A DNA stretch of 35,722 bases from Candidatus Omnitrophota bacterium (GCA_013287965.1 JABDCU010000018.1:1-35722), one strand, 5' to 3'; shown: positions 5,781 to 35,722, counted from the first letter of the stretch. Made by a program: numbers and translations. The notes: generated by a model not told the origin, from the letters alone.

Positions 5781-6158
5781 ATGTATTATTTAAAAAATTA
5801 ATATTTCTATCGTTGGGCCAAGAAACAAGGCATCACAGACAAGGTGCTTTCAGATGCAATAGAAGAATTCGAAAGCGGATTATACGAGGCGAATTTAGGT
5901 AACCATTTGTACAAAAAGCGGATCGCCCTGGCCGGACGCGGCAAAAGTGGAGGGGCTCGAACAATATTATTCTATCAGCAAGGCAAGAAATTAATTTTTT
6001 GCCATGGGTTCGAGAAAAGTGATCAAAGCAATTTAAGCAGTTTCGAAGTTAAATTTTTTAATAAATTATCGGACAGTTATCAACATTTACCGGAAGAAGA
6101 AGTTATTAAAATGATCAGAAATGACAGGTTTTTTAGAATTTCTAGAACGGAGAGTTAA
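5781..6158 (+). pseudogene. RelE-family toxin with premature stop codon
   Basis: From the ATG at 5781 the frame reads MYYLKN, then TAA (5799-5801), then continues as YFYRWAKKQGITDKVLSDAIEEFESGL to the stop at 6158. The continuation fits the RelE-like toxin family (PF06296 type): the 'F..WAKK.GI.D..L..A..E...GL' start and the core YKKRIALAGRGKSGGARTILFY are both present. The lost residue would be expected to be a lysine (AAA to TAA), a one-base change. A shorter product could start at GTG 5844, but it would lack the first strand and helix. The toxin is an mRNA interferase in its family; here it is probably inactive or truncated. The matched antitoxin follows after four bases. Confidence 0.75.
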
Positions 6159-6162
6159 TCAT

Positions 6163-6468
6163 ATGAGAAACAGTATTAGAGATATGGTTTTGGAATCCAT
6201 GGAAGATCTTTATAAAAATGGTTCGATAGATGAAATAACCATTCGTGAAGTCAGGGCTTTGGCCATGGAGGATATTAAATCATATCCCCCGAGAGCAATT
6301 GTGCGACTTCGTAGAAAGCTTAAACTGAGCCAAGCAGCCTTAGCCAGATTCATTAATACGAGTGTGCAAACAATTCAAAGCTGGGAGCAGGGCGTCAAGA
6401 AACCTTCTGGAACGGCCCTCAAGTTGCTGCATATTATTGATGAGAAAGGCTTGTCAGCGGTCATTTAA
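6163..6468 (+). CDS. XRE/HigA-type helix-turn-helix antitoxin
   Basis: The 101-residue protein has an N-terminal helical region and a Cro/C1-type helix-turn-helix. The HTH core is RLRRKLKLSQAALARFINTSVQTIQSWEQGVKKPSGTA, about residues 46-83. This is the usual antitoxin partner of RelE/HigB-like toxins and should bind both toxin and operator. I chose ATG 6163 because GGAGAG lies just upstream and the gap to the toxin stop is four bases; an in-frame ATG at 6121 would overlap the toxin. A strong terminator follows. The antitoxin frame is intact although the toxin frame is not. Confidence 0.88.
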   Translation: MRNSIRDMVLESMEDLYKNGSIDEITIREVRALAMEDIKSYPPRAIVRLRRKLKLSQAALARFINTSVQTIQSWEQGVKKPSGTALKLLHIIDEKGLSAVI

Positions 6469-6710: not shown

Positions 6711-9700
6711 ATGTTTAAACGTGTCATAGCAACGCTGCTTTGCGTTACTTTTTCTTTTAGTAATCTCCAGTTGTCCCAAGCTCAGGATTTTAGCGTTAAT
6801 CAGCTTCCTCTGCCTGGCACCATGGTAGGAGAGTCCGCGCCGTTTTCACCTTTGGCCTTAAAAGGCCTTGTTGTTAATCTTCAAAAACCCTTAGAATTCC
6901 AATTCATTGTTGATACCGGAAAGGGGCCGCAGGACACTGCCACCATCAAAGATCAAGCTAATCAATTGGTTAAATATTTTTTGGCAGGCCTGACCATCCC
7001 TGAAGGTGATCTATGGGTCAATTTATCTCCTTATGAGAAGAGCCGTATGGTCCCTGCGGCGTTGGGTCAAACAGATCTAGGCAGGGATTTATTGGCCCAA
7101 GACTACATTCTCAAGCAGTTGACCGCTTCCCTAATATATCCCGAAAAAGATTTAGGCAAGGCATTTTGGAGCAGGGTGTACGCAAAAGCCCAACAGCAAT
7201 TCGGCACAACCAATGTGCCGGTCAATACCTTTAATAAGGTATGGATCCTTCCTGATCAGGCGCAAGTTTTCGAGAACGTCAATGCCGCCTATGTGACCAA
7301 ATCAACCTTGAAGGTCATGTTAGATGAAGACTATCTGGCACTTCATAAACATACGACCCAAAATAACGGCACTGATTCAATAGGATCTCAAATCGTTCGC
7401 GAAATCGTCCTCCCTGAAATAACCAAAGAAGTCAACACCGGCAAAAACTTTGCCCCGTTACGCCAAATCTATCAAGCACTCATCTTGGCCAAATGGTATA
7501 AGGAAACTATTCAAAACGGGCTTTTGGATGCTATTTATACCAATAAAAATAAAATCGCTGGCGTCAATCTAAATGATCCTGCGGTTAAAGAGCAAATTTA
7601 TGAGCGTTACCTAAAGGCCTATAAGAAGGGTGCGTTTAACTACATTAAGGAAGACCCAACGCCCGAAGGCCAAGTTGTGCCGAGGAAGTATTTTTCGGGG
7701 GGAGCATATTTTGCTGGTTACTATCATCTTGATAAAATTCACGACAGTAATGCTATGATTTCTGCAAGGAAATTAGTGGCAGGGGCACTGTTATTATTGA
7801 CCTTTATTTTGGGACCAGCAGTAAATCCAGTCTTAGCGCAAAATAATATTTCTCCTCAGGCATTTGGCGGTCCTGTGACCCAATCTCCTTCAGTATCTCC
7901 GTTGGAATTTTCTATCCCGTTGCCACAAGGGAAAATCACAACTTATAGGGAAGCGCCTCCGGCTAATACTATTCAATCAAATTATAAATATATCGATCAA
8001 ATACCCTTTGGTGATGGTTTTCATGTCCAAAAAGGATTGACGTACGCCTTTTCATTAGAAGGCAAATCGTTTGTAGATAATAAGAAGATAATTAAAGGGA
8101 AGGTACTGCTTGTCATTGAAGTAGTTTACAAATATGAGAAAGGTAAATCTGATAAAAGCTATCGTATCATTGTGGTGCCCGATGATGGAGGTCCCAGATA
8201 TTTAAAGATAGAGGAAACAAAAACGCATAAAAATGTGGTTTTGGTGGATAAAGCCATGTCGCAGGCACTGCCAAAACAAACTTCATATGTGGCGATGAAC
8301 GGACAGGTTCTATTGCCTCAGGAATCGACGACCGTGCATGTGGGGAAATGGCAAGATAAGGAAGCAACGCCCGTTGTACACATTCAATATGGCGGCAAAG
8401 AATATACACTTATTGTCTGGGAAGTGGGGAAGGATGAATTAAGAGGTCCCTATACTCCCGGACTTACAATAAAAGATATCAATGATCAGTTGCGGCAAAA
8501 GAAGATCTCAGCAAAGATTGTGTACGAGCCAGGCGGTGATTTATATGTACAGAATATATCTACGGAACAACAAAATCTGATTTTAGCCTCCCCCACTCGC
8601 ATGGCTTTTCTCAATGATAAATTCGTCCAATTTAATGCGGCGATGACAATAAAAGAAGAGAAAATGCAAAAGGCCTTAGCTTACATAGTTTGGAAAAAAG
8701 GAAGAATTAAACCACAGGAAAATAGTTTACTCAGAAGAATATTATCCGGGGAAGCCGCATATAGTCAGCTACCCGATGAAATCCGTGATGATCCGTCATT
8801 TAAAAGAACCTTTGTTTGCGCAAAGTTGATAATAGAAAGCGATGGTGGGCTTTCGGATTATTCCTTGGGAGTCATAGATATATTTCTTGAAGGCAATATT
8901 CATCGACAGGTTGTATTAGATGAATTGATCAGAAATGGGAGAATTCTTGAAAGGGCAGAACATCTTCTCGAAAGGGCCGTGCAATTAATGCAAAATCCCG
9001 ATGCGGAGATGAAGGTAGAAGAGTATCAGAGGATAGCTGATTCTCTTTTGTATAGTGAATATACGGGTTCAAGCCCGGAGAAAGATCAGGCTAAACTATT
9101 GGCATTGCGTAAATTGACAAAGCGTGTAACAGAAAAGATCGAAGAAGTTAAGGGAACAAGCGTTGTTTCTGAAGAAGAAATAAATAATGTTATGCAGCAT
9201 CTTAATGCCAAAACTGAGGAGTATAGCGAAGGGGGAAAATATACGTTTAAGATTAGAATAGATGCGGCGATGTTAGACGGTCTTAAGAAAATCATCTCAA
9301 GAAGAAAAGCACTTATAGGAATCGGGGCAGGAGCTGTAATAATAAAACAAGGTCTTAGTGAAATCTTTTTACCTTATAAAGGGATAGCAGGAAAAATAGT
9401 GATATTACCGGATAGCAGTCATTTTGATATAACAAAAGAGACTGAAATCCTTATCCATGGGGCCAATGAAAATAATATTCCTAAGAGTTTTAGTGGTATG
9501 GCCCAAGAAGCCGTGAGCAGGGGTAAAAATTTTCTTGTCTATGCCTATGATCAAAATAGTTCCATGGACGATTGGGTGGGTGATTTAATAAAAATCGTTG
9601 AGAAGTTGAAGTTGATGGCAAAGGAACAAGGTGCTGATCCGGAGAATATTGCATATATTCCATATTCAATGGGAGCGGATATTTTTTGGTATGCAGTTTT

Positions 9701-12700
9701 GAAGGAACCAAATTTATTTACGAATGTTCAAGTAAAGCAAATGGCTCCGGCTATTGGTGGCGCTCAAGAAGCAAGGGTACTCCCAAGTGTATGGCTACAA
9801 GAGCGGCTCGTTAAGTTTGGCGTTCCTTTCTTGGCCAGCAATGGCGATATTCAATTAACAAGGGTTTTACACCCTGAGGGGAAAGTAAAAATATTCGAGG
9901 ACCTTAATGTTTGTAATTTTCTTTTAAATACGGTGGGAGTGAGCAATGTCCAAACTTTTTCGCCGGATGTAGATACCGTCGTCATAGCAACTAATAGTCC
10001 ACTTCTTGGTAAGGTGACAAAGTATCCAGGTGTGGCGCATGAAAAGATCGCGGAAGACCCTCGTGTCATTCAAGCGGTCTTCGATCAGGCGATGAATGCG
10101 AATAAAATTTCTCGGCGTTTGTTTTTAAAAGGGGCCGCAGGATCACTGATGGCTCCAATGTTTCCTGGGTTTGCGTCGTCCCAAGACCTTTCTTATGAAT
10201 CTCTTTCATCAATGTCTGACCAAGAGTTGATCGCTATTATCAAAGATATAGCTGATAAAAATACGACACACTTTGATGTCATTCTTTCAAAAACGTATTT
10301 ATTCGCATCGGTTGTATTACAAGAAAGATATCGACAAAAACCAGATGCCAGGGCTGGTATAAGAAAAGGATTGATTGATGTTATGGATGATAAGAAAAAC
10401 ACTTACCTCACGACAGGGATCATGTTTCATCTGTTACGGCAATTGACAGCGGATGAGCCAAACGTTTTACTGGATTTATATAAGCGGAATCTTGCTGGCT
10501 ATGATCAGGAGTATTTATACCTTAAACAAATTTTTGAAAGCCCAATATTTTTGCGTAAGAACATTACAGAAGCAGAGGCCCGGGTGGCTTTAAACGGGCT
10601 GATATCTTCCTCCAGGAAGATTTTCGCAAGTTATAAAACAGCTGGAATAAAATTTAAGAGCCCTCTTTATAAAATTTTGCGGGCGGAACATTATTCATCC
10701 AGTATTTTCTTCCTGGTCCATCGTTACGTTAATTTCTTTATCCGGCAGCAAGACCGTATGAAATTAAAAGCCGATCAAATGCCCGGATTAAAAGTAACAT
10801 CAGCCAGCCAGATAAGGCAGAAACTCAAGGACGTTTTTGTAAATTCACAATCCGTTGGTGTTAGTGCAGGTATAGAAAATGCTAATGCAGGAGGGTATTT
10901 GAACCCTGGTTACCTGGCTCATGTTCAGGATCTAATAGAATTTTATGATATTCTCTGGCATGAATATGGACATAATGATGTTGATGATCAGGCCCCCTGG
11001 CTCCAAGAATCAATGGATAAAAATATCAGGAATGGTGAGCGTCTTCAAAATTTGCAAGGAATACATGAGTTAGGCGGCGACATTGAGGCAGTGGTCATCT
11101 CGATGATGGAAGGGGCCGGGGAGAAGGCTTATTTGAAATTCTTAAGCTCTCTTGAAAGATCTGTTGCTGACGGTGAGATCAATGAACAATTTCAGATTTT
11201 TGATTTGCTTGCAGATGAAAAGCCAAAGGAAATAGTGCCCGAAGAGCTTTATTCCAAATTTATTAATATAACAAATATGGAAGCCCATGCGTTTTCAAGG
11301 GGGTTTTTATCATGGCTTGTATCCACCAGTCCAGGGCATGGAGGGATTTTGCGTGATTTTACAGATTGGGTGCTCCTGTATGTTTCTTATAACGAAGTCC
11401 TTGATGAGTTTGGTAAAATCCCAGGAGGCCCTGTCGTAGGAGATGATTTTTTTATGAAATTTAAAGACAGGGTCGTTGAAAAATATAAGCAAAAAAGAAG
11501 CCAGAGAAAAACCCTGCCCCCTAAACTCGGCGGGATTTATCCTAATATCATATTGAATGCGCAAAGATTTCAGATGATTGATGCGGCGATGACAAATAAG
11601 AAATCGGCCGGTTCCAACAAAACGAAATCAAACAAAAAAGCCTTGAAGGCGAGTGGCCAACAAAAGACTTTTGACCCAAGCAGAAGGACATTCTTAAAGA
11701 AAGGCGGTGTTTGGGTGACAGGTGGGGTTCTGGCGACGGCTGTTTTCGGAGGAGGGGGATATTGGTGGTGGAACCGATCATCTGTCCCTTTAACTTCTAC
11801 TGCCGAATGGCCTGTGAATTTTCATTTTATTTTTAATGCTCATGCAGGGGCCATCGACAATCAACAAATCGCGGATGCATGGGCGAAAGTGACCCCAGGC
11901 CAGCCTATCATATGGTTTATGGAGGATATTCGTGACGTTAATTTTCTTCTTTCTGGTGTTAGAGAAAGTATTCGACTTCTCTCTCCATCAGACCGCCAAC
12001 GTTTTTTTGCGGAGATGGGATGGGGCGCTGGAACGTCAGTTGCAGACGCGATGGAGCAGCTGGATAAAGACGAAAGATTATTTGTTAATGCCAAAGGGGA
12101 AGAAATTCTTACGAGCGGCTATATTAGAGAGCGGATCAATTTTTATATGAGATATTTTAGCCTTATGAAGCAACAATTTGTCCTTAATCCATTTGATCCG
12201 GTTACGCAAGAAAACATGCCATTAGTAAAAGCCTATCCGATATATAAGCCGAGAATTGAAATAGAAGGCGTTAGTCTGGAAGCAGCTGTTGAGCAATTGG
12301 CAAGTGAGCAGTTTCAGAAAGAAGCCTATAATGCTCTTTTAAAAGAAAAAAATGAGGAAAAGTATTTTTACAATATGGAAAAATATTTGGAGGCAGACTT
12401 TAGGTTTAATCAGTTGCGGGATAAAAACGTGGTCGAACAATTACAGGCCATTGCCCGTAACCCGCAGAATAAAGGGACGACTATTATTGTCAGTCGGGGT
12501 GACTGGCATTACATCACATTACGGGACGATATTGAAACGTTCCGTCAAAAAACGAATGGAGTAACGCTTGATTTGCAAAGCAATCCACAACAAGATACTC
12601 AAAAAATTAGAATCAGAGATTTTGTTGAGTTAAGCCATTTCAGAAATGGTGTATATCATACAAATGATCCTATAGATAAAGACCAATTAAAACGCATACT

Positions 12701-13319
12701 TATTGAAGATATTTTATCTAGAAGTTTTAGCGCTTCTTTTACAGGGTCTAAATTCCAATTATATAAGTTCCCCGAAAAAGAAGGTCCATCAGCTTATCAT
12801 CAAGCAATACGTGTAATTTTATCAGGTTTAACGGGGGATACGCTTGACGAGTTTATTAGTTCAATACAAAATAACCCTTTTGGGCCGGATGCTGATTATT
12901 TTGCATTGGCTGTTTATATAATTGAACAGCTGAGAAAATTTAATAGAGTCACAGAGGATGAGTTACAAAGACTGTTCCTTAGGGTTTCTTTGCTTGATAA
13001 AGGAAATTTGGCCGAAATTGATGTCGAAATGCCTAATGGAAAGATCCAAAAGTTTGGCTTTCCCTATAAGCATACTGGAGGTAACCGCGCTATGATTGAG
13101 AACGAAAAAGGCGGTATTGATCTTAACCAGATCAACGTCCTTCGGGGTGGCAGGAAGGTGCTTGTCCAATTTGACCCGGCCCAGCTTAATGAATTAGAAC
13201 AAAGTGATTTTAGAGGCTTTACTCCAGTGATCACCGGTTTTCAATATATCTCAAGTCCCTTCCCGTTACTCGGCATCAATCGTCCTGCCAAAGATTCGGT
13301 TTTGCTCGCAAAAGCGTAG
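6711..13319 (+). CDS. giant exported multi-module (polyprotein-like) protein, Omnitrophota type
   Basis: The 2202-residue product starts with a Sec signal peptide (cleavage near SQAQ, residue 25). Residues 26-340 match a region I recall from large Omnitrophota proteins (LWVNLSPYEKSR, GRDLLAQDYILKQLTASL, FNKVWI, PRKYFSGG). A second signal-like helix lies at 350-375. Residues 880-1120 resemble an alpha/beta hydrolase (LIHGANENN, PYSMG in place of GxSxG, late His). A zinc-peptidase-like HEYGH sits at 1417-1421 with HELGGD at 1452-1457. Twin-arginine motifs occur at 864-865, 1135-1136 (SRRLFLKG) and 1658-1659 (SRRTFLKK, then a hydrophobic helix). A motif [D/N]xAM recurs at 347-349, 642, 851, 1125, 1624 and 2125. 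The C-terminus has GGIDLN. The gene looks AT-richer than its neighbours. The function is unknown; the frame itself is certain. Confidence 0.9.
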   Translation: MFKRVIATLLCVTFSFSNLQLSQAQDFSVNQLPLPGTMVGESAPFSPLALKGLVVNLQKPLEFQFIVDTGKGPQDTATIKDQANQLVKYFLAGLTIPEGDLWVNLSPYEKSRMVPAALGQTDLGRDLLAQDYILKQLTASLIYPEKDLGKAFWSRVYAKAQQQFGTTNVPVNTFNKVWILPDQAQVFENVNAAYVTKSTLKVMLDEDYLALHKHTTQNNGTDSIGSQIVREIVLPEITKEVNTGKNFAPLRQIYQALILAKWYKETIQNGLLDAIYTNKNKIAGVNLNDPAVKEQIYERYLKAYKKGAFNYIKEDPTPEGQVVPRKYFSGGAYFAGYYHLDKIHDSNAMISARKLVAGALLLLTFILGPAVNPVLAQNNISPQAFGGPVTQSPSVSPLEFSIPLPQGKITTYREAPPANTIQSNYKYIDQIPFGDGFHVQKGLTYAFSLEGKSFVDNKKIIKGKVLLVIEVVYKYEKGKSDKSYRIIVVPDDGGPRYLKIEETKTHKNVVLVDKAMSQALPKQTSYVAMNGQVLLPQESTTVHVGKWQDKEATPVVHIQYGGKEYTLIVWEVGKDELRGPYTPGLTIKDINDQLRQKKISAKIVYEPGGDLYVQNISTEQQNLILASPTRMAFLNDKFVQFNAAMTIKEEKMQKALAYIVWKKGRIKPQENSLLRRILSGEAAYSQLPDEIRDDPSFKRTFVCAKLIIESDGGLSDYSLGVIDIFLEGNIHRQVVLDELIRNGRILERAEHLLERAVQLMQNPDAEMKVEEYQRIADSLLYSEYTGSSPEKDQAKLLALRKLTKRVTEKIEEVKGTSVVSEEEINNVMQHLNAKTEEYSEGGKYTFKIRIDAAMLDGLKKIISRRKALIGIGAGAVIIKQGLSEIFLPYKGIAGKIVILPDSSHFDITKETEILIHGANENNIPKSFSGMAQEAVSRGKNFLVYAYDQNSSMDDWVGDLIKIVEKLKLMAKEQGADPENIAYIPYSMGADIFWYAVLKEPNLFTNVQVKQMAPAIGGAQEARVLPSVWLQERLVKFGVPFLASNGDIQLTRVLHPEGKVKIFEDLNVCNFLLNTVGVSNVQTFSPDVDTVVIATNSPLLGKVTKYPGVAHEKIAEDPRVIQAVFDQAMNANKISRRLFLKGAAGSLMAPMFPGFASSQDLSYESLSSMSDQELIAIIKDIADKNTTHFDVILSKTYLFASVVLQERYRQKPDARAGIRKGLIDVMDDKKNTYLTTGIMFHLLRQLTADEPNVLLDLYKRNLAGYDQEYLYLKQIFESPIFLRKNITEAEARVALNGLISSSRKIFASYKTAGIKFKSPLYKILRAEHYSSSIFFLVHRYVNFFIRQQDRMKLKADQMPGLKVTSASQIRQKLKDVFVNSQSVGVSAGIENANAGGYLNPGYLAHVQDLIEFYDILWHEYGHNDVDDQAPWLQESMDKNIRNGERLQNLQGIHELGGDIEAVVISMMEGAGEKAYLKFLSSLERSVADGEINEQFQIFDLLADEKPKEIVPEELYSKFINITNMEAHAFSRGFLSWLVSTSPGHGGILRDFTDWVLLYVSYNEVLDEFGKIPGGPVVGDDFFMKFKDRVVEKYKQKRSQRKTLPPKLGGIYPNIILNAQRFQMIDAAMTNKKSAGSNKTKSNKKALKASGQQKTFDPSRRTFLKKGGVWVTGGVLATAVFGGGGYWWWNRSSVPLTSTAEWPVNFHFIFNAHAGAIDNQQIADAWAKVTPGQPIIWFMEDIRDVNFLLSGVRESIRLLSPSDRQRFFAEMGWGAGTSVADAMEQLDKDERLFVNAKGEEILTSGYIRERINFYMRYFSLMKQQFVLNPFDPVTQENMPLVKAYPIYKPRIEIEGVSLEAAVEQLASEQFQKEAYNALLKEKNEEKYFYNMEKYLEADFRFNQLRDKNVVEQLQAIARNPQNKGTTIIVSRGDWHYITLRDDIETFRQKTNGVTLDLQSNPQQDTQKIRIRDFVELSHFRNGVYHTNDPIDKDQLKRILIEDILSRSFSASFTGSKFQLYKFPEKEGPSAYHQAIRVILSGLTGDTLDEFISSIQNNPFGPDADYFALAVYIIEQLRKFNRVTEDELQRLFLRVSLLDKGNLAEIDVEMPNGKIQKFGFPYKHTGGNRAMIENEKGGIDLNQINVLRGGRKVLVQFDPAQLNELEQSDFRGFTPVITGFQYISSPFPLLGINRPAKDSVLLAKA

Positions 13320-20195: not shown

Positions 20196-21431
20196 ATGCC
20201 TGCAAGGATCCCCTGTCTTTTTTTGCTGATCGTAAGTTTTTGTGCCTTGTCCCTGCCGGTTTCAGCCGGCCCTGTGGTAAACAATCCTGATTACAAACAA
20301 TACACCGATTATTTTGAGAAAGTCTATAAAGTCTTCGAAGATAATTATTATCTGGTCCCTGACCGCAATACCTATGACCGTTTTTTGAAGAAATGGAAAA
20401 GCGATATATACGCACAGCTTAAAAGCGAGCACAAAAGCGATGATTATGTCCGCTGGCGCAGTTCCTGGTATTTGGTGAATGCCTTAAAGTCTAAGGACGA
20501 TGAATTTACCGGATTTTGGCCTCCGGGCAAATCAGTGGCTGCCTTTCACCATGATGTACTTGCCCAGAAAGTGGACCTGGGGATCGAAGGCAAGAAAAAT
20601 GATCTTGGGTTTGTGGTGACCCGCTTAGAAAGGCACGCGGATGCTTTTGCTAAAGGTTTGCGGGAAGGTGACATTATCCTGCAGATCGACGGAGTTCCGC
20701 TGGGGCCCATGGTCCAGGAGGCCATTGAAGCCAAGTTAACGCCGGTGATAAAAACACATGTCAAAATATCCTATCTCAGCGGCGAGACCAAGCTGCCCAA
20801 CAGCATTGATGTTGTCAGCCAAGAGTATTTTAAGCAGACGGTTTTTATGCATCAGGTGCCTGTGGAGGGGGTTTTTTGTTTGGAGATCACTCACTTTAAC
20901 GAAATGACCCCGCAGGACATGGATTATTTTTTAAGCGTCATAAGGCCGCAAAACCCCAAAGGTCTGGTCCTGGACCTGCGGGACAATCCCGGCGGCCAAG
21001 TGGGGGGCGCGGTGGAGATCGCCTCTTACTTTTTGAAGGCCGGGGAATTCGCGTACTTCCAGAAGCGTAATGAACCTAAATATGAACTGACTATTCCTGA
21101 TGTCGGGGCCCAATACCTGATCACCTGTCCTATCGTCATCCTTGTCGATGCCGGCACCGGCTCTGCCGCTGAACTTTTTAGCGGTATCATGCAGTATCAT
21201 GGCAGGGCCTATGTCTTGGGGGTCAACACCGCAGGCCAGATCCTGCTTAAAAGATCATTCCCCGTGGGAGATGGTGCCGAGATAGCCATGGTGATGGCCC
21301 GCGGGTATTATCCCAACGGGCGTATGTTTGGTTTTGACGGTATAACCCCCAATAAAATAATCAGCGATGCGCCCAAGGACGGGCTGATCAATTTGGCCGC
21401 GGCCTTGATTGCCATGAAAGCGGGGCAGTGA
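20196..21431 (+). CDS. S41-family carboxy-terminal processing protease-like protein
   Basis: The 411-residue protein has a signal peptide (MPARIPCLFLLIVSFCALSLPVSAGP) and should act in the periplasm. A PDZ domain spans about residues 130-200 (GLREGDIILQIDGVPLG). The tail-specific protease core follows: GLVLDLRDNPGGQVGGAVEIAS and GTGSAAELFSG, with the presumed nucleophile Ser323. The usual catalytic lysine after the 'GE.T.GK' strand is not in place: the segment here is GVNTAGQILLKRS. The enzyme may use a different catalytic set, as in the IRBP/tricorn branch, or be inactive. It heads a run of genes with a 2-bp gap to a tiny membrane ORF. Confidence 0.88.
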   Translation: MPARIPCLFLLIVSFCALSLPVSAGPVVNNPDYKQYTDYFEKVYKVFEDNYYLVPDRNTYDRFLKKWKSDIYAQLKSEHKSDDYVRWRSSWYLVNALKSKDDEFTGFWPPGKSVAAFHHDVLAQKVDLGIEGKKNDLGFVVTRLERHADAFAKGLREGDIILQIDGVPLGPMVQEAIEAKLTPVIKTHVKISYLSGETKLPNSIDVVSQEYFKQTVFMHQVPVEGVFCLEITHFNEMTPQDMDYFLSVIRPQNPKGLVLDLRDNPGGQVGGAVEIASYFLKAGEFAYFQKRNEPKYELTIPDVGAQYLITCPIVILVDAGTGSAAELFSGIMQYHGRAYVLGVNTAGQILLKRSFPVGDGAEIAMVMARGYYPNGRMFGFDGITPNKIISDAPKDGLINLAAALIAMKAGQ

Positions 21432-21433
21432 TC

Positions 21434-21532
21434 ATGGTCTTCATTTTAATTGCCGTTAATATCTTTTTTACTGTTGTGGCGGTTTTCTTTTTGAAAAAAT
21501 TTTGGGACAAGGAATTGAGAGACACGAAGTGA
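21434..21532 (+). CDS. 32-residue single-pass membrane peptide
   Basis: The frame begins at ATG 21434, reads MVFILIAVNIFFTVVAVFFL then KKFWDKELRDTK, and stops at TGA 21530-21532. It starts 2 bp after the protease stop, and its own stop overlaps the GTG start of the glycosyltransferase in a GTGA arrangement. This tight coupling on both sides supports real translation. It is one hydrophobic helix with a charged tail; the function is unknown. Confidence 0.6.
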   Translation: MVFILIAVNIFFTVVAVFFLKKFWDKELRDTK

Positions 21533-30188: not shown

Positions 30189-33100
30189 ATGTCTTATAAA
30201 AACCAGCGTTTAAAAATGAATTCAAGACACTGCCCATGGAAAATTTTTGCCTTTTTGGCATTTTTCATGGGCGGAGCTTTCGTTTCCGTAGGCTTTGCGC
30301 AATACAGCGGCGGGGACCAAACCACCGGTGATGCGCAGTCTTCCATCGGCAGTGATATCTACAGCGGCGGATCGCAGAATAATTCTCCCTATTCCACTTC
30401 AGGATCACAGGGGGCCTTGTCTTATGGAACGCCGGTTAAGCTTGCCTTTATAACCAGCCCGTCCGATACCAATCACTCGATTCCATTTTCACGTCAGCCA
30501 GTCGTGGCTGTTGAAGATGCTTATGGTAATGTCGTTGCTAATGACAATACCGATCAGGTGACAGTAGCTATCTTAAGTAATCCTGGTAATGGTACTTTGT
30601 TGGGTACAACTACGGTTCAAGTTGTCAATGGTCTGGCCCAATTTACCAATTTGGCCATTAATACGTCCGGCCAATTGTATTCTCTTCAAGCCACATCCGG
30701 CACGCTTACTCCCGGAACATCTGCACCTTTTACTATAAACCCTGGTACCGGCCCTAAAGCTGCTGCTATTTGGAGTAATAGTAATAGTGCCTATTACATT
30801 TATGTATGGGTTGAGAATGATAACGCAAGATTAGCTTTTGATGATCCTACTAATAGTGATACATGTTCTGTAAAAATTTATAATCCGGGTGGTACTGTGA
30901 ATACTACCTTAGGCACAGCTTCTTTTACAGCTAATGGCCCCGCTGAAGTCCCTCCTAATACTTGTATATCAACCAGTACATGGACACCAGGAGCTGCTTC
31001 CTCAGGTGCTTTAGCTAATGGTTATACGGCTACGGTAACGGTAACTGGAACGACACCTTGTAATAGTGGTTGTACCGCTACGATTCCTTTCCCATTAACC
31101 GGCAGCGGAACAGTTATTCAAGATTCTCTCGGGAACACCATCAACTGGCAGGATATCGGGGCCATCAAAGCTACTCTTAACTGGCAGGATATTAAGGCCA
31201 TCAAAGCCAGTACCGATAACATCTGTTGGACAGATATTGCAACTCTAAAGACCAATGTCTCTTCAATTATAACAACCCTTGGTAATACTATCGGCAAAAC
31301 AGGTATTAACTGGGATGACTTCAATGTGCAAACTAATGTTGGCATTAATTGGAAAGACATTGCTGCATTGACGGTGAAAGGTGTCAACTGGGCTGATTTT
31401 ACCGTCCTTTCCAATATCGGTGTTAATTGGGGGAATTTTAGCGTTTTAACAAAAAGCGGGATCAATTGGTCGGACCTCCAAAAGATGCATAGTTTGGGCA
31501 TCAACTGGAATGACTTTGCTGTTCTTTCCAAAGCCGGTATCAATTGGGATGATCTGGCCATCATGGGTAAGACAGGCATTAACTGGTATGACATGACGAT
31601 CATAACCACTGCCGGCGTTGTCTGGTCTACAGGGATCAATTGGTATGACCTGGCGGCTTTGAGTAGTGTTGGTGTCAATTGGTCAGATCTGACGGTCTTG
31701 TCGGTCAATAATATCAATTGGTATGATCTTCGTGTGATGAGTGATGTCGGGATCAATTGGTATGATTTTAATGTTTTAACCAGGACAGGCATTAATTGGA
31801 ATGATTTTGGAGTAATGGGGAAGATAGGCATTAACTGGGGTGATTTTGGAGTATTGAGCAAGACAGGGATCAATTGGAATGACTTTGGGGTACTTTCTAA
31901 GGCAGGTGTCAATTGGTATGACATGAACGTGTTGACTCGCACGGGCATTAATTGGAATGATTTCGGGGTGCTTTCTAAGGTAGGAGTGAACTGGTATGAC
32001 ATGAACGTGTTGACCAAATCAGGAATTAACTGGAATGATTTTGGGGTGCTGAGCCGCACAGGCATTAACTGGAGTGATTTTGGGGTATTGAGCAAGACAG
32101 GGATCAATTGGTCTGATTTTGGGGTATTAAGCAAGGCAGGAATAAATTGGAATGATTTGAATGTTTTAAGCCGTACAGGTATCAATTGGTCTGATTTTGG
32201 AGTGCTAAGTAAGATAGGTGTGAATTGGTCGGATATGAACGTGTTGACCCGTTCGGGAATTAATTGGAATGATTTTGGGGTACTTTCTAAAGTAGGAGTG
32301 AATTGGTATGACATGAACGTGTTGACTCGCACAGGCGTTAACTGGAATGATTTTGGGGTATTAACCAAGGCAGGAGTGAATTGGAATGACTTTGGGGTCT
32401 TAAGCAAGACAGGTGTCAACTGGAATGATATTGATGTGGTCAGTCGTATCGGAATTAATTGGAGTGATTTTGGGATATTAAGCAAGGTGGGTGTTAATTG
32501 GTACGACATGAATGTGTTGACCCGCACGGGGCTGAATTGGAATGATTTTCAAGTCATAAGCCATACAGGCATTAACTGGAATGATTTTGGGGTGTTAAGC
32601 AAGGCAGGTATTAATTGGAATGACATGAACGTGTTGACCCGCACAGGACTCAATTGGAATGACCTTCAAGTATTAACAACGACGGGAATTAACTGGAGTG
32701 ATTTGGGCAGTTTCGTGAATACATTATCTGAAGCAGGTATCAACTGGAGCGATCTGGCGGTGATGACCAAGACAGGTATGAATTGGTCGGATCTGTCAGT
32801 ATTGACCAAGACGGGTATCAACTGGAATGATTTTGGAGTGATGGGTCGTGCAGGCATTAATTGGAATGACTTTGGAGTGTTAAGCAAGACAGGCATTAAC
32901 TGGAGCGACGTGTACGTGGTCAGCCGCACAGGCATCAACTGGAATGATTTTGGGGTACTTTCTAAGGTAGGGGTCAATTGGTATGACATGAATGTTTTGA
33001 CCCGCACCGGTGTTAATTGGAATGATTTGGACGTCCTTTCCAGGGTAGGAGTGAATTGGTACGACATGAACGTGTTGACCCGTAACGGGATCAACTGGAA

Positions 33101-35722
33101 TGATTTTGGGGTGTTAAGTAAGGCAGGTGTTAATTGGAATGATTTTGGGGTTTTAGGCAAGACAGGGATCAACTGGAGTGATTTTGGGGTATTAAGCCGT
33201 ATGGGCGTTAACTGGAATGACTTTGGGGTATTAACCAAGGCAGGTGTTAATTGGAACGACTTGGGGACACTTTCCAAGGTGGGTGTCAATTGGTATGACA
33301 TGAACGTGTTAACACGTAACGGGATCAACTGGAATGACTTTGGAGTAATGAGCAAGGTAGGGGTGAATTGGTATGACATGAATGTCTTAAGCCGGACTGG
33401 AATTAATTGGAATGACATTAATGTTGTTAGCCGGACCGGAATTAACTGGAATGATTTTGGGGTAATGAGTAAGGCAGGGGTCAATTGGAATGATTTTGGA
33501 GTGTTGAGTACTTCTGGGATCAACTGGAGTGACATGAACGTGTTGACCCGTATAGGCGTTAATTGGAGTGACTTTGGAGTAATGAGTAAGACAGGTGTTA
33601 ATTGGAATGATTTCGGGGTACTTTCCAAGGTAGGAGTGAATTGGAATGATATGAATGTGTTGACTCGCACCGGCGTTAATTGGAGCGACCTGGGAGTGCT
33701 TTCTAAGGTAGGAGTGAATTGGTACGACATGAATGTGTTGACCCGTAACGGGATCAACTGGAATGATTTTGGGGTATTAAGTAAGGCAGGCGTGAATTGG
33801 AATGACATGAACGTGTTGACCAAGACGGGCATTAACTGGAGTGATTTTGGAGTGTTAAGCAAGACAGGGATCAACTGGAATGATTTTGGAGTGATGGGTA
33901 AGGTGGGAATTAATTGGAACGACTTTGGGGTACTCTCTAAGGTAGGAGTGAATTGGAATGATATGAACGTATTAACGCGTACGGGCATTAACTGGAATGA
34001 TTTTGGGGTACTTTCCAAGGTAGGCGTTAATTGGTATGACATGAACGTGTTGACCCGTACGGGTGTTAATTGGAGTGATTTGAACGTGCTTTCCAGGATA
34101 GGTGTGAATTGGTACGACATGAACGTCTTGACCCGCACGGGTGTTAATTGGAATGATTTTGGGGTACTTTCCAGGGTAGGTGTCAATTGGTATGACATGA
34201 ATGTGTTGACACATAACGGGATTAACTGGAATGATTTTGGAGTATTAACTAAGGCAGGAGTTAACTGGAATGATTTTGGGGTCTTAAGCAAGACAGGTAT
34301 CAACTGGAATGATATCAATGTGGTTAGCCGCACGGGAATTAATTGGAGCGATTTTGGAGTGCTGAGCAAGACAGGAATCAACTGGAGTGACTTTGGGGTA
34401 CTCTCTAAGGTAGGAGTGAATTGGAATGATATGAACGTTTTAACGCGTACGGGCATTAACTGGAATGATTTCGGGGTACTTTCTAAGGTGGGTGTCAATT
34501 GGTATGACATGAATGTTTTGACCCGTACCGGTGTTAATTGGAATGATTTGAACGTGCTTTCCAGAATTGGAGTGAATTGGAATGACATGAATGTTTTGAC
34601 CCGCACAGGCATTAACTGGAGCGATTTTGGGGTCATGAGCAGGACAGGAATCAACTGGAATGATTTTGGAGTCTTAAGTAAGACAGGGGTCAATTGGAAT
34701 GATATGTATGTGTTAAGTCGTACAGGAGTCAACTGGAGTGATTTCGGAGTATTAAGTACTATAGGCATTAATTGGAATGATTTGGGAGTGTTGAGCAAGA
34801 TAGGGGTCAATTGGAATGATATGAACGTGGTAAGCCGCACAGGGATCAATTGGAATGATTTTGGGGTGCTTTCGAAGGTGGGAGTAAATTGGTATGACAT
34901 GAACGTCTTGACCCGTACCGGTGTTAATTGGAATGATTTGGGAGTGCTTTCTAAGGTAGGTGTCAATTGGTATGACATGAATGTGCTGACACATAACGGG
35001 ATCAACTGGAACGATTTTGGGGTCTTAACTAAGGCAGGAGTTAACTGGAATGATTTTGGGGTTTTAAGCAAGACGGGTATCAACTGGAATGATATCAATG
35101 TGGTTAGCCGCACGGGAATTAATTGGAGCGACTTTGGAGTATTAAGCAGGACAGGTATTAACTGGAATGATTTTGGAGTGTTAAGCAAGACAGGTGTCAA
35201 TTGGAATGACTTAAATGTATTGACCCGCATAGGTGTTAATTGGGGTGATTTTGGGGTCTTAAGCAAGGTGGGAGTGAATTGGTATGACATGAATGTTTTA
35301 ACACGCGTCGGAGTGAATTGGAATGACATGAATGTGTTAACGCGCACGGGCATTAATTGGAATGATTTTGGAGTTCTAAGTAAGGCGGGAGTGAATTGGA
35401 ATGATATGAATGTGTTAACGCGCACGGGCATTAATTGGAATGATTTTGGAGTGCTAAGTAAGGCGGGAGTGAATTGGAATGACATGAACGTGTTGACCCG
35501 TATCGGTATTAATTGGAATGACTTGAACGTGCTTTCTAGGATTGGAGTGAATTGGAATGACATGAATGTGTTAACGCGCACGGGCATTAATTGGAATGAT
35601 TTTGGAGTGTTAAGCAAGACAGGTGTCAACTGGAATGACTTTGGAGTATTGAGCAAGGCAGGTGTCAACTGGAATGATATCAATGTGGTTAGCCGTACGG
35701 GAATTAATTGGAATGATTTTGG
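30189..35722 (+). CDS. giant exported protein with 13-residue NW-repeats (partial, runs off window)
   Basis: The frame starts at ATG 30189 (alternative 30216) and stays open for 1844 codons to the window end. A signal peptide (WKIFAFLAFFMGGAFVSVGFAQ) is followed by a Ser/Gly-rich stretch. Next is an Ig-like domain at about 77-180, with QPVVAVEDAYGN, VTVAIL, GTLLGTTTVQVVNGLAQFTNL. A second beta-rich Thr/Asn region follows to about 310. Degenerate repeats begin near residue 315 (TINWQDIGAIKA), and regular 13-residue units run from 31302 to the end. I know of no named family for the repeat. The N-terminal part is visibly richer in A/T than the FGE genes. It is probably a surface or secreted fibre; its association with the upstream secretin is inferred from order. 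Confidence 0.92.
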   Translation, partial: MSYKNQRLKMNSRHCPWKIFAFLAFFMGGAFVSVGFAQYSGGDQTTGDAQSSIGSDIYSGGSQNNSPYSTSGSQGALSYGTPVKLAFITSPSDTNHSIPFSRQPVVAVEDAYGNVVANDNTDQVTVAILSNPGNGTLLGTTTVQVVNGLAQFTNLAINTSGQLYSLQATSGTLTPGTSAPFTINPGTGPKAAAIWSNSNSAYYIYVWVENDNARLAFDDPTNSDTCSVKIYNPGGTVNTTLGTASFTANGPAEVPPNTCISTSTWTPGAASSGALANGYTATVTVTGTTPCNSGCTATIPFPLTGSGTVIQDSLGNTINWQDIGAIKATLNWQDIKAIKASTDNICWTDIATLKTNVSSIITTLGNTIGKTGINWDDFNVQTNVGINWKDIAALTVKGVNWADFTVLSNIGVNWGNFSVLTKSGINWSDLQKMHSLGINWNDFAVLSKAGINWDDLAIMGKTGINWYDMTIITTAGVVWSTGINWYDLAALSSVGVNWSDLTVLSVNNINWYDLRVMSDVGINWYDFNVLTRTGINWNDFGVMGKIGINWGDFGVLSKTGINWNDFGVLSKAGVNWYDMNVLTRTGINWNDFGVLSKVGVNWYDMNVLTKSGINWNDFGVLSRTGINWSDFGVLSKTGINWSDFGVLSKAGINWNDLNVLSRTGINWSDFGVLSKIGVNWSDMNVLTRSGINWNDFGVLSKVGVNWYDMNVLTRTGVNWNDFGVLTKAGVNWNDFGVLSKTGVNWNDIDVVSRIGINWSDFGILSKVGVNWYDMNVLTRTGLNWNDFQVISHTGINWNDFGVLSKAGINWNDMNVLTRTGLNWNDLQVLTTTGINWSDLGSFVNTLSEAGINWSDLAVMTKTGMNWSDLSVLTKTGINWNDFGVMGRAGINWNDFGVLSKTGINWSDVYVVSRTGINWNDFGVLSKVGVNWYDMNVLTRTGVNWNDLDVLSRVGVNWYDMNVLTRNGINWNDFGVLSKAGVNWNDFGVLGKTGINWSDFGVLSRMGVNWNDFGVLTKAGVNWNDLGTLSKVGVNWYDMNVLTRNGINWNDFGVMSKVGVNWYDMNVLSRTGINWNDINVVSRTGINWNDFGVMSKAGVNWNDFGVLSTSGINWSDMNVLTRIGVNWSDFGVMSKTGVNWNDFGVLSKVGVNWNDMNVLTRTGVNWSDLGVLSKVGVNWYDMNVLTRNGINWNDFGVLSKAGVNWNDMNVLTKTGINWSDFGVLSKTGINWNDFGVMGKVGINWNDFGVLSKVGVNWNDMNVLTRTGINWNDFGVLSKVGVNWYDMNVLTRTGVNWSDLNVLSRIGVNWYDMNVLTRTGVNWNDFGVLSRVGVNWYDMNVLTHNGINWNDFGVLTKAGVNWNDFGVLSKTGINWNDINVVSRTGINWSDFGVLSKTGINWSDFGVLSKVGVNWNDMNVLTRTGINWNDFGVLSKVGVNWYDMNVLTRTGVNWNDLNVLSRIGVNWNDMNVLTRTGINWSDFGVMSRTGINWNDFGVLSKTGVNWNDMYVLSRTGVNWSDFGVLSTIGINWNDLGVLSKIGVNWNDMNVVSRTGINWNDFGVLSKVGVNWYDMNVLTRTGVNWNDLGVLSKVGVNWYDMNVLTHNGINWNDFGVLTKAGVNWNDFGVLSKTGINWNDINVVSRTGINWSDFGVLSRTGINWNDFGVLSKTGVNWNDLNVLTRIGVNWGDFGVLSKVGVNWYDMNVLTRVGVNWNDMNVLTRTGINWNDFGVLSKAGVNWNDMNVLTRTGINWNDFGVLSKAGVNWNDMNVLTRIGINWNDLNVLSRIGVNWNDMNVLTRTGINWNDFGVLSKTGVNWNDFGVLSKAGVNWNDINVVSRTGINWNDF
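31302..35722 (+). repeat. 39-bp coding tandem repeat array (over 110 units)
   Basis: The unit is 39 bp and encodes G-[IV]-N-W-[NYS]-D-[FML]-[GN]-V-[LMV]-[ST]-[KR]-x. Two main types alternate: 'GINWNDFGVLSKx' and 'GVNWYDMNVLTRx', giving a 78-bp higher-order period in places. The array continues past the window. Breaks in register occur near 31615 (extra GVVWST) and near 32700 (LGSFVNTLSEA), both multiples of three. Degenerate units occupy 31131-31301. The reverse strand has long open frames here purely because the unit has no stops in that frame. Confidence 0.96.

Follow-up and report, generated by a model that had tools for sequence, protein, structure and literature searches.

Joining several different proteins in one polyprotein is typical of viruses and of a few eukaryotic systems, and we know of no bacterium described as doing so genome-wide. 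The plastid-targeted polyproteins of Euglena, which comprise LHC, the RuBisCO small subunit and chloroplast PGK, begin with an N-terminal targeting region; a conserved linker peptide connects the mature units behind it, which proteolysis sets free, with a second isoform for the cytosol (PMC7729029). MARTX (multifunctional autoprocessing RTX) toxins are secreted bacterial chains of great length in which the ends are conserved and the modules between them can be exchanged and are cut out (PMC6315884, PMC2900308). Glycolytic enzymes in one frame are represented by PGK-TIM of T. maritima (PMC7729029) and by eukaryotic TPI-GAPDH (PMC3527533). Within Omnitrophota itself, one report describes giant ORFs of Omnitrophota and Velamenicoccia of more than 20 kb with few annotated domains, which were proposed to encode adhesins or predation proteins (PMC10066038).

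The giant genes analysed here, starting from a window of 35,722 nucleotides (the whole stretch of DNA under analysis) of a Candidatus Omnitrophota bacterium (GCA_013287965.1 JABDCU010000018.1:1-35722), are best explained, with a probability of roughly three in four, as bacterial polyprotein genes, each specifying a head that is exported, a cargo of one or more complete proteins and a C-terminal tail, connected by short linkers in which [D/N/S]-x-A-M stands. They share with the Euglena chains the N-terminal targeting region, the mature units, the conserved linker, a predicted release by proteolysis and PGK among the cargoes. The Euglena system is unlike them in being eukaryotic, in repeating copies of one protein per chain and in using a decapeptide linker, whereas the Omnitrophota giants join unrelated proteins by a four-residue mark in a bacterium. 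To our knowledge, no conserved tail is known from the Euglena polyproteins. MARTX toxins differ in their RTX repeats and built-in cysteine protease domain, for neither of which a Pfam match was found in the window protein or about 30 relatives scanned, while the Omnitrophota cargo includes glycolytic enzymes. PGK-TIM and TPI-GAPDH consist of two enzymes, stay uncut and bifunctional, and have no junction code, head or tail. The giant ORFs of the published report are likewise very long and from the same phylum, but the accessible part of that report mentions neither the head-tail family nor the junction motif, and a literature search on polyproteins in Omnitrophota returned nothing relevant.

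In the window, an ORF at 6711..13319 on the + strand, the strand of all features given below, runs for 2,202 codons without interruption. An earlier note had proposed that six motifs divide the product into seven parts of about 75 to 500 residues; all six lie exactly where it placed them, and the parts measure 348, 296, 209, 274, 499, 501 and 75 aa. A seventh motif, DKA/M inside part 2 (aa 513-516; 8247..8258; the slash marks the predicted cut), was absent from that list and may be a further junction. The seven [DNS]xAM compare with 0.51 expected from composition (Poisson P ~1e-6), and none of 3,000 shuffles reached this number.

Part 1, the head (6711..7754), comprises a Sec-type signal peptide and a domain of about 330 aa ending in PRKYFSGG (aa 324-331). 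Junction 1, SNA/M (aa 346-349; 7746..7757), is followed immediately by a Sec-type signal-like sequence, MISARKLVAGALLLLTFILGPAVNPVLAQ, with which part 2 (aa 349-644; 7755..8642) begins before continuing into an orphan domain. Junction 2, NAA/M (aa 642-645; 8634..8645), precedes part 3 (aa 645-853; 8643..9269), which is soluble and without an export signal. After junction 3, DAA/M (aa 851-854; 9261..9272), part 4 (aa 854-1127; 9270..10091) carries RRKALIGIGAGA, a weaker, Tat-like signal (SRRKALIG, 863-870), and an alpha/beta-hydrolase-like domain, a reading made by eye from ILIHGA (913) and PYSMGA (984). Junction 4, DQA/M (aa 1125-1128; 10083..10094), leads into part 5 (aa 1128-1626; 10092..11588), which carries the putative Tat signal MNANKISRRLFLKGAAGS, with SRRLFLKG (Pfam TAT_signal, E = 0.0065, short of the curated cut-off), and HEYGH (1417-1421), a possible zinc-metallopeptidase motif. 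Part 6 (aa 1627-2127; 11589..13091), behind junction 5, DAA/M (aa 1624-1627; 11580..11591), is an orphan domain with the Tat-like twin-arginine sequence SRRTFLKK at 1657, 30 aa into the part, and junction 6, NRA/M (aa 2125-2128; 13083..13094), gives way to part 7, the tail (aa 2128-2202; 13092..13316), a C-terminal domain with GGIDLN at 2134-2139. Searches of the window protein against Pfam and NCBIfam gave nothing except weak Tat signals, part 6 matching TIGR02811 at a score under the cut-off; part 5 had no relative in the PDB at E<=1, and parts 2-6 had no homologue in 32 family genomes apart from one distant relative of part 4 (G295, E 5.4e-6). The cargo of the window gene is orphan, with no standalone protein for comparison, so that the exact ends of its parts are predicted ones.

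The window genome contains at least 14 polyprotein-type genes, and a search of it with a 63-residue tail stretch returned 14 matches, nearly all in ORFs of 640-2,600 aa. Most of the fetched paralogues follow a common plan of signal peptide and head of about 330 aa, variable middle and GGID[LF]N tail. Their heads, ending in PRKYFSGG, are 54-92% identical to the window head, and the middles of family members are mostly unrelated to one another; the alignments comprised 10 paralogues (A1) and 85 homologues at 46-92% identity (A3) for the head, and 14 paralogues (A2) for the tail. A member from another genome (L026) shares 87% identity with the head of the window protein and 62% with its tail, and no match to the middle segments of the window protein was found. 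A head scan of public genomes gave at least 499 confirmed relatives, counts here and below being drawn from metagenome-assembled genomes; among the matches listed, the 78 head loci kept are nearly all labelled Omnitrophota. Of 35 genomes sampled from the same order, 33 carried the tail, as did six further genomes of the class. The AF2 model of the head has a mean pLDDT of 82, and searches of the head found no Pfam or NCBIfam family and, by fold, no PDB match at E<=0.001. The [DN]PAM inside the tail (e.g., FDPAMI) is a portion of the tail domain and not a junction, and was excluded from the middle counts and from the logo.

The sequences show the motif to be a specific junction mark under constraint, placed between modules and often at the natural ends of complete proteins. 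Across 55 Omnitrophota genomes, [DN]xAM occurred 312 times in the middles against 31.4 expected; some loci overlap, and this main count was redone with overlaps removed. Permutations of the same residues occurred 15-98 times, compared with 322 for [DN]xAM, and a scan of all gapped triplets in the middles of motif-bearing genomes ranked D.AM first (z = 43.7). Other proteins on the same contigs contained 16 D.AM, where the density of the giants would give 305, and avoidance of D.AM in them was not seen (0.73x, similar to other polar residues at that place). Conservation is restricted to P3, P1 and P1'; a weak bias is seen at P4 (P/S/A), P2 (A/Q), P2' (T/N) and P3' (S/A/T). When [DN] was kept, substitutes for A or M remained near background (about 1x vs 18x), indicating that the mark is not a decaying scar and, on this evidence, is currently under selection. 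The P1 codon GCN is GCG-biased (43% vs 30% in other giant AM pairs); all four Ala codons nevertheless occur and P3 Asp uses both of its codons, suggesting that the mark is read as protein rather than as a DNA-level signal.

The earlier note would have been refuted by a motif not conserved at borders in homologues; put to this test, its reading held, as the top gapped triplet in the middles of giant relatives avoids domains and homologous modules and often coincides with natural protein ends. None of 17 Pfam spans contains the motif. In 45 alignments between homologous modules of different giants, the motif fell inside 7 times where chance would give 34.5, and it stood at 16 alignment ends where chance would give 4.8. 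These border tests cover the modules that have relatives or Pfam domains, which make up a minority of the cargo. A HATPase domain ends 3 aa before a motif Met, and ADK, response regulator and transaldolase domains start 9, 11 and 22 aa after one, respectively; transaldolase is also among the complete enzymes whose natural end adjoins the motif. Orthologous junctions retain the motif at 35-39% identity, and those flanking a GlpX-like module are conserved at 39%, the label being given by eye because a PDB search with this cargo (L016) found no match. Besides response regulator and transaldolase domains, the cargo comprises adenylate kinase, GNAT, histidine kinase, HAD, HEAT, LOG, methyltransferase, protein kinase and UDP-glucose pyrophosphorylase-like domains as well as phosphoserine aminotransferase. 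Many middles contain long motif-free stretches.

Complete proteins in one frame were confirmed for GAPDH, PGK and enolase in one giant (L135) and for PGI and phosphohexomutase (PGM), in this order, in another (L078). The former, of 2,991 aa, comprises a head, an unassigned part, GAPDH, DQA/M, PGK, DQA/M, enolase, DKA/M, a short part, DQA/M, a part similar to FBP aldolase, DQA/M and the tail. Its PGK aligned with PDB 1php from residue 3 to the last (394), followed by just ADQA before the A/M bond, and its GAPDH aligned to residue 330 of 334, followed by 10 aa; inspection by eye suggests that active-site motifs, among them ASCTTN and SHRSGET, have been retained. A second chain of the same genome combines a phosphofructokinase-like part, assigned by eye, with PGI. 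PGK and enolase adjoin in two genera with the junction at the identical place. An AF2 model of this pair from six sequences gave a confident PGK, junction residues 449-453 with pLDDT <50 and a weak enolase part, which renders it only mildly informative. A standalone PGK is present in most of 54 genomes of the order; PGK inside a giant frame occurs in about nine, mostly in addition to the standalone one; in G110 the giant copy is the only one found. PGI occurs as a long type when embedded and a shorter type when standalone. At several embedded PGKs, one or both ends are without the motif.

In some lineages, the head-tail giants are without DxAM and their middles are enriched in SSP (61 vs 3.6 expected, z = 30), mostly followed by V or I; giants of still other lineages have neither mark. 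The same PGI module, 63% identical, ends ANADKA/M in L078 and QPSSSP/V in L143, in register. This switch would suit a protease whose specificity has changed, and it counts against a relic of start codons. The idea of the earlier note that precursor proteins were joined with their start methionine retained accordingly fits the DxAM lineages but not all, as sister lineages have SSP/V or SSP/I at the same place.

The same note had described sequences resembling export signals after several junctions, which is the case for parts 2, 4, 5 and 6 of the window protein and not for parts 3 and 7. TatC is encoded in the window genome. Export signals directly behind junctions occur in several genera: besides the window protein, Sec-type signals follow junctions in L015 and JABDFL, Tat-type signals in L017 and G071, and a lipoprotein-type signal (LSGC) in CAIUQE; a distant homologue of part 4 in a congeneric genome likewise lies behind a junction, DNA/M, succeeded by RRDLFRG and a lipobox-like AGCSG. 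Hydrophobic stretches after junctions number 28 against 12.7, a count that includes about ten tail matches and therefore serves only as a list of examples. Since Sec, Tat and lipoprotein signals normally act at an N-terminus, cytoplasmic cutting is the simplest reading of their position. In the best reading of these sequences, the chain would be cut between A and M by a putative endopeptidase, probably in the cytoplasm and co- or post-translationally, and each released cargo would begin with Met and end in DxA. Cutting there would allow any part that bears a Sec, Tat or lipoprotein signal of its own to be exported afterwards and soluble enzymes to be retained inside.

The N-terminal signal on the heads could also export the whole chain, in which case the junctions would be cut across the membrane, whether in the periplasm, at the surface, in a vesicle or inside a host or prey, with the second enzyme set serving another compartment. 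Parallels are found in the Euglena plastid polyproteins and MARTX toxins, and this order of events accords with conserved ends and exchangeable cargo, with the embedded PGK as an extra copy beside the standalone one in most carrier genomes, with an embedded PGI similarly unlike the short standalone type, and with the epibiotic or predatory life proposed for Omnitrophota (PMC10066038). Export signals straight after junctions, however, are sensible only with cytoplasmic cutting, and ATP- or NAD-dependent enzymes would be idle in the periplasm, which makes export before cutting unlikely. It is more doubtful still that the chain stays uncut as one covalent multi-enzyme assembly in which [DN]xAM is merely a linker or docking motif. 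Cutting itself is deduced, and fused glycolytic enzymes exist elsewhere, as in PGK-TIM of T. maritima (PMC7729029); yet strict A and M with free flanks would be unusual in a linker, and the in-register swap from DxAM to SSP[V/I], the unrelated cargo mix and the export signals within the chain are at odds with such an assembly.

Two readings that place the weight on the Met codon fare worse. If the junctions were scars, each Met being the old start codon of genes joined in frame and having no present function, some cargo should have Met where its natural N-terminus lies, as is found. The P3 residue of the window genome is D, N or S with Gly nearly absent, and its Ser codons are AGY in 19 of 19 cases, which looks like descent from Asp via Asn codons and would suit such scars. 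Decay, however, would leave neighbours at every position, and A and M have none; the DxA before Met would be left unexplained, and SSP[V/I] contains no start codon, so that we consider scars highly improbable. Internal translation starts yielding the parts separately can be given hardly any credence: every DxAM junction has an ATG, but a Shine-Dalgarno sequence precedes 6% of junction ATGs, compared with 37% of head starts and 9% of other internal ATGs, GTG and TTG are not enriched at the junction place (0.76x and 0.88x), the DxA constraint is unexplained, and the SSP[V/I] lineages have no ATG there. The unenriched A and M variants together with junction ATGs devoid of Shine-Dalgarno sequences thus argue against both fusion relics and internal starts.

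Extending the polyprotein reading to the whole order is more tentative, at somewhat less than even odds: many of the accessory proteins, among them a second glycolytic set in some species, would be made as polyproteins with shared heads and tails, a dedicated protease would read a code that switched from DxA/M to SSP/V, code and protease having co-evolved, and the liberated set may be meant for a compartment or a partner cell. If the predicted cutting is true, it would be a new way for bacteria to express genes and account for some of the giant ORFs that have been puzzling in Omnitrophota. It would also predict that a protease recognizing specific sequences exists with two natural specificities, and raise the question of why glycolytic enzymes are made in this way alongside normal copies.

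At the [DNS]xAM sites, the proposed polyprotein junctions with a putative cut between A and M, the shift of the P3 residue from Asp to Asn and Ser is found mainly in the genus of the window. Every P3 Ser at such sites in the window genome is encoded by an AGY codon (19/19), and Gly is almost missing from P3 in this genome.

Immediately 5' of the giant gene, a toxin-antitoxin pair occupies 5844-6468 (+), comprising a RelE-family toxin (Pfam RelE match, 1.6e-28) and an MqsA-like HTH antitoxin (HTH_3). A second giant ORF (30189-35720, +; >1,840 aa) runs open off the window end; most of its length is taken up by 'TGINWNDFGVLSK'-type short repeats, and DxAM is absent from the portion inside the window. 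The long antisense ORF at 32666-35722 (-) is probably a shadow of these repeats.

Among the compared genomes, G308 carries a phosphoglycerate kinase (PGK)-like domain (contig C56, about 20398-21483) within an 8,222-aa open frame, the longest giant encountered in the analysis. In G110, the only PGK detected lies in a giant gene (contig C77, 10843-11966), where its end is broken across several frames, and none was found in the 88% complete genome G224; sequencing error or decay may account for the state of PGK in both.

Several paralogue heads, the N-terminal domains of the giant-gene relatives L017, L018, and L022, contain extra stretches inserted in frame, 'VIPAKAGIQ' and 'RHSERSEES' among them, which look like translated palindromic repeat elements sited in variable head loops.
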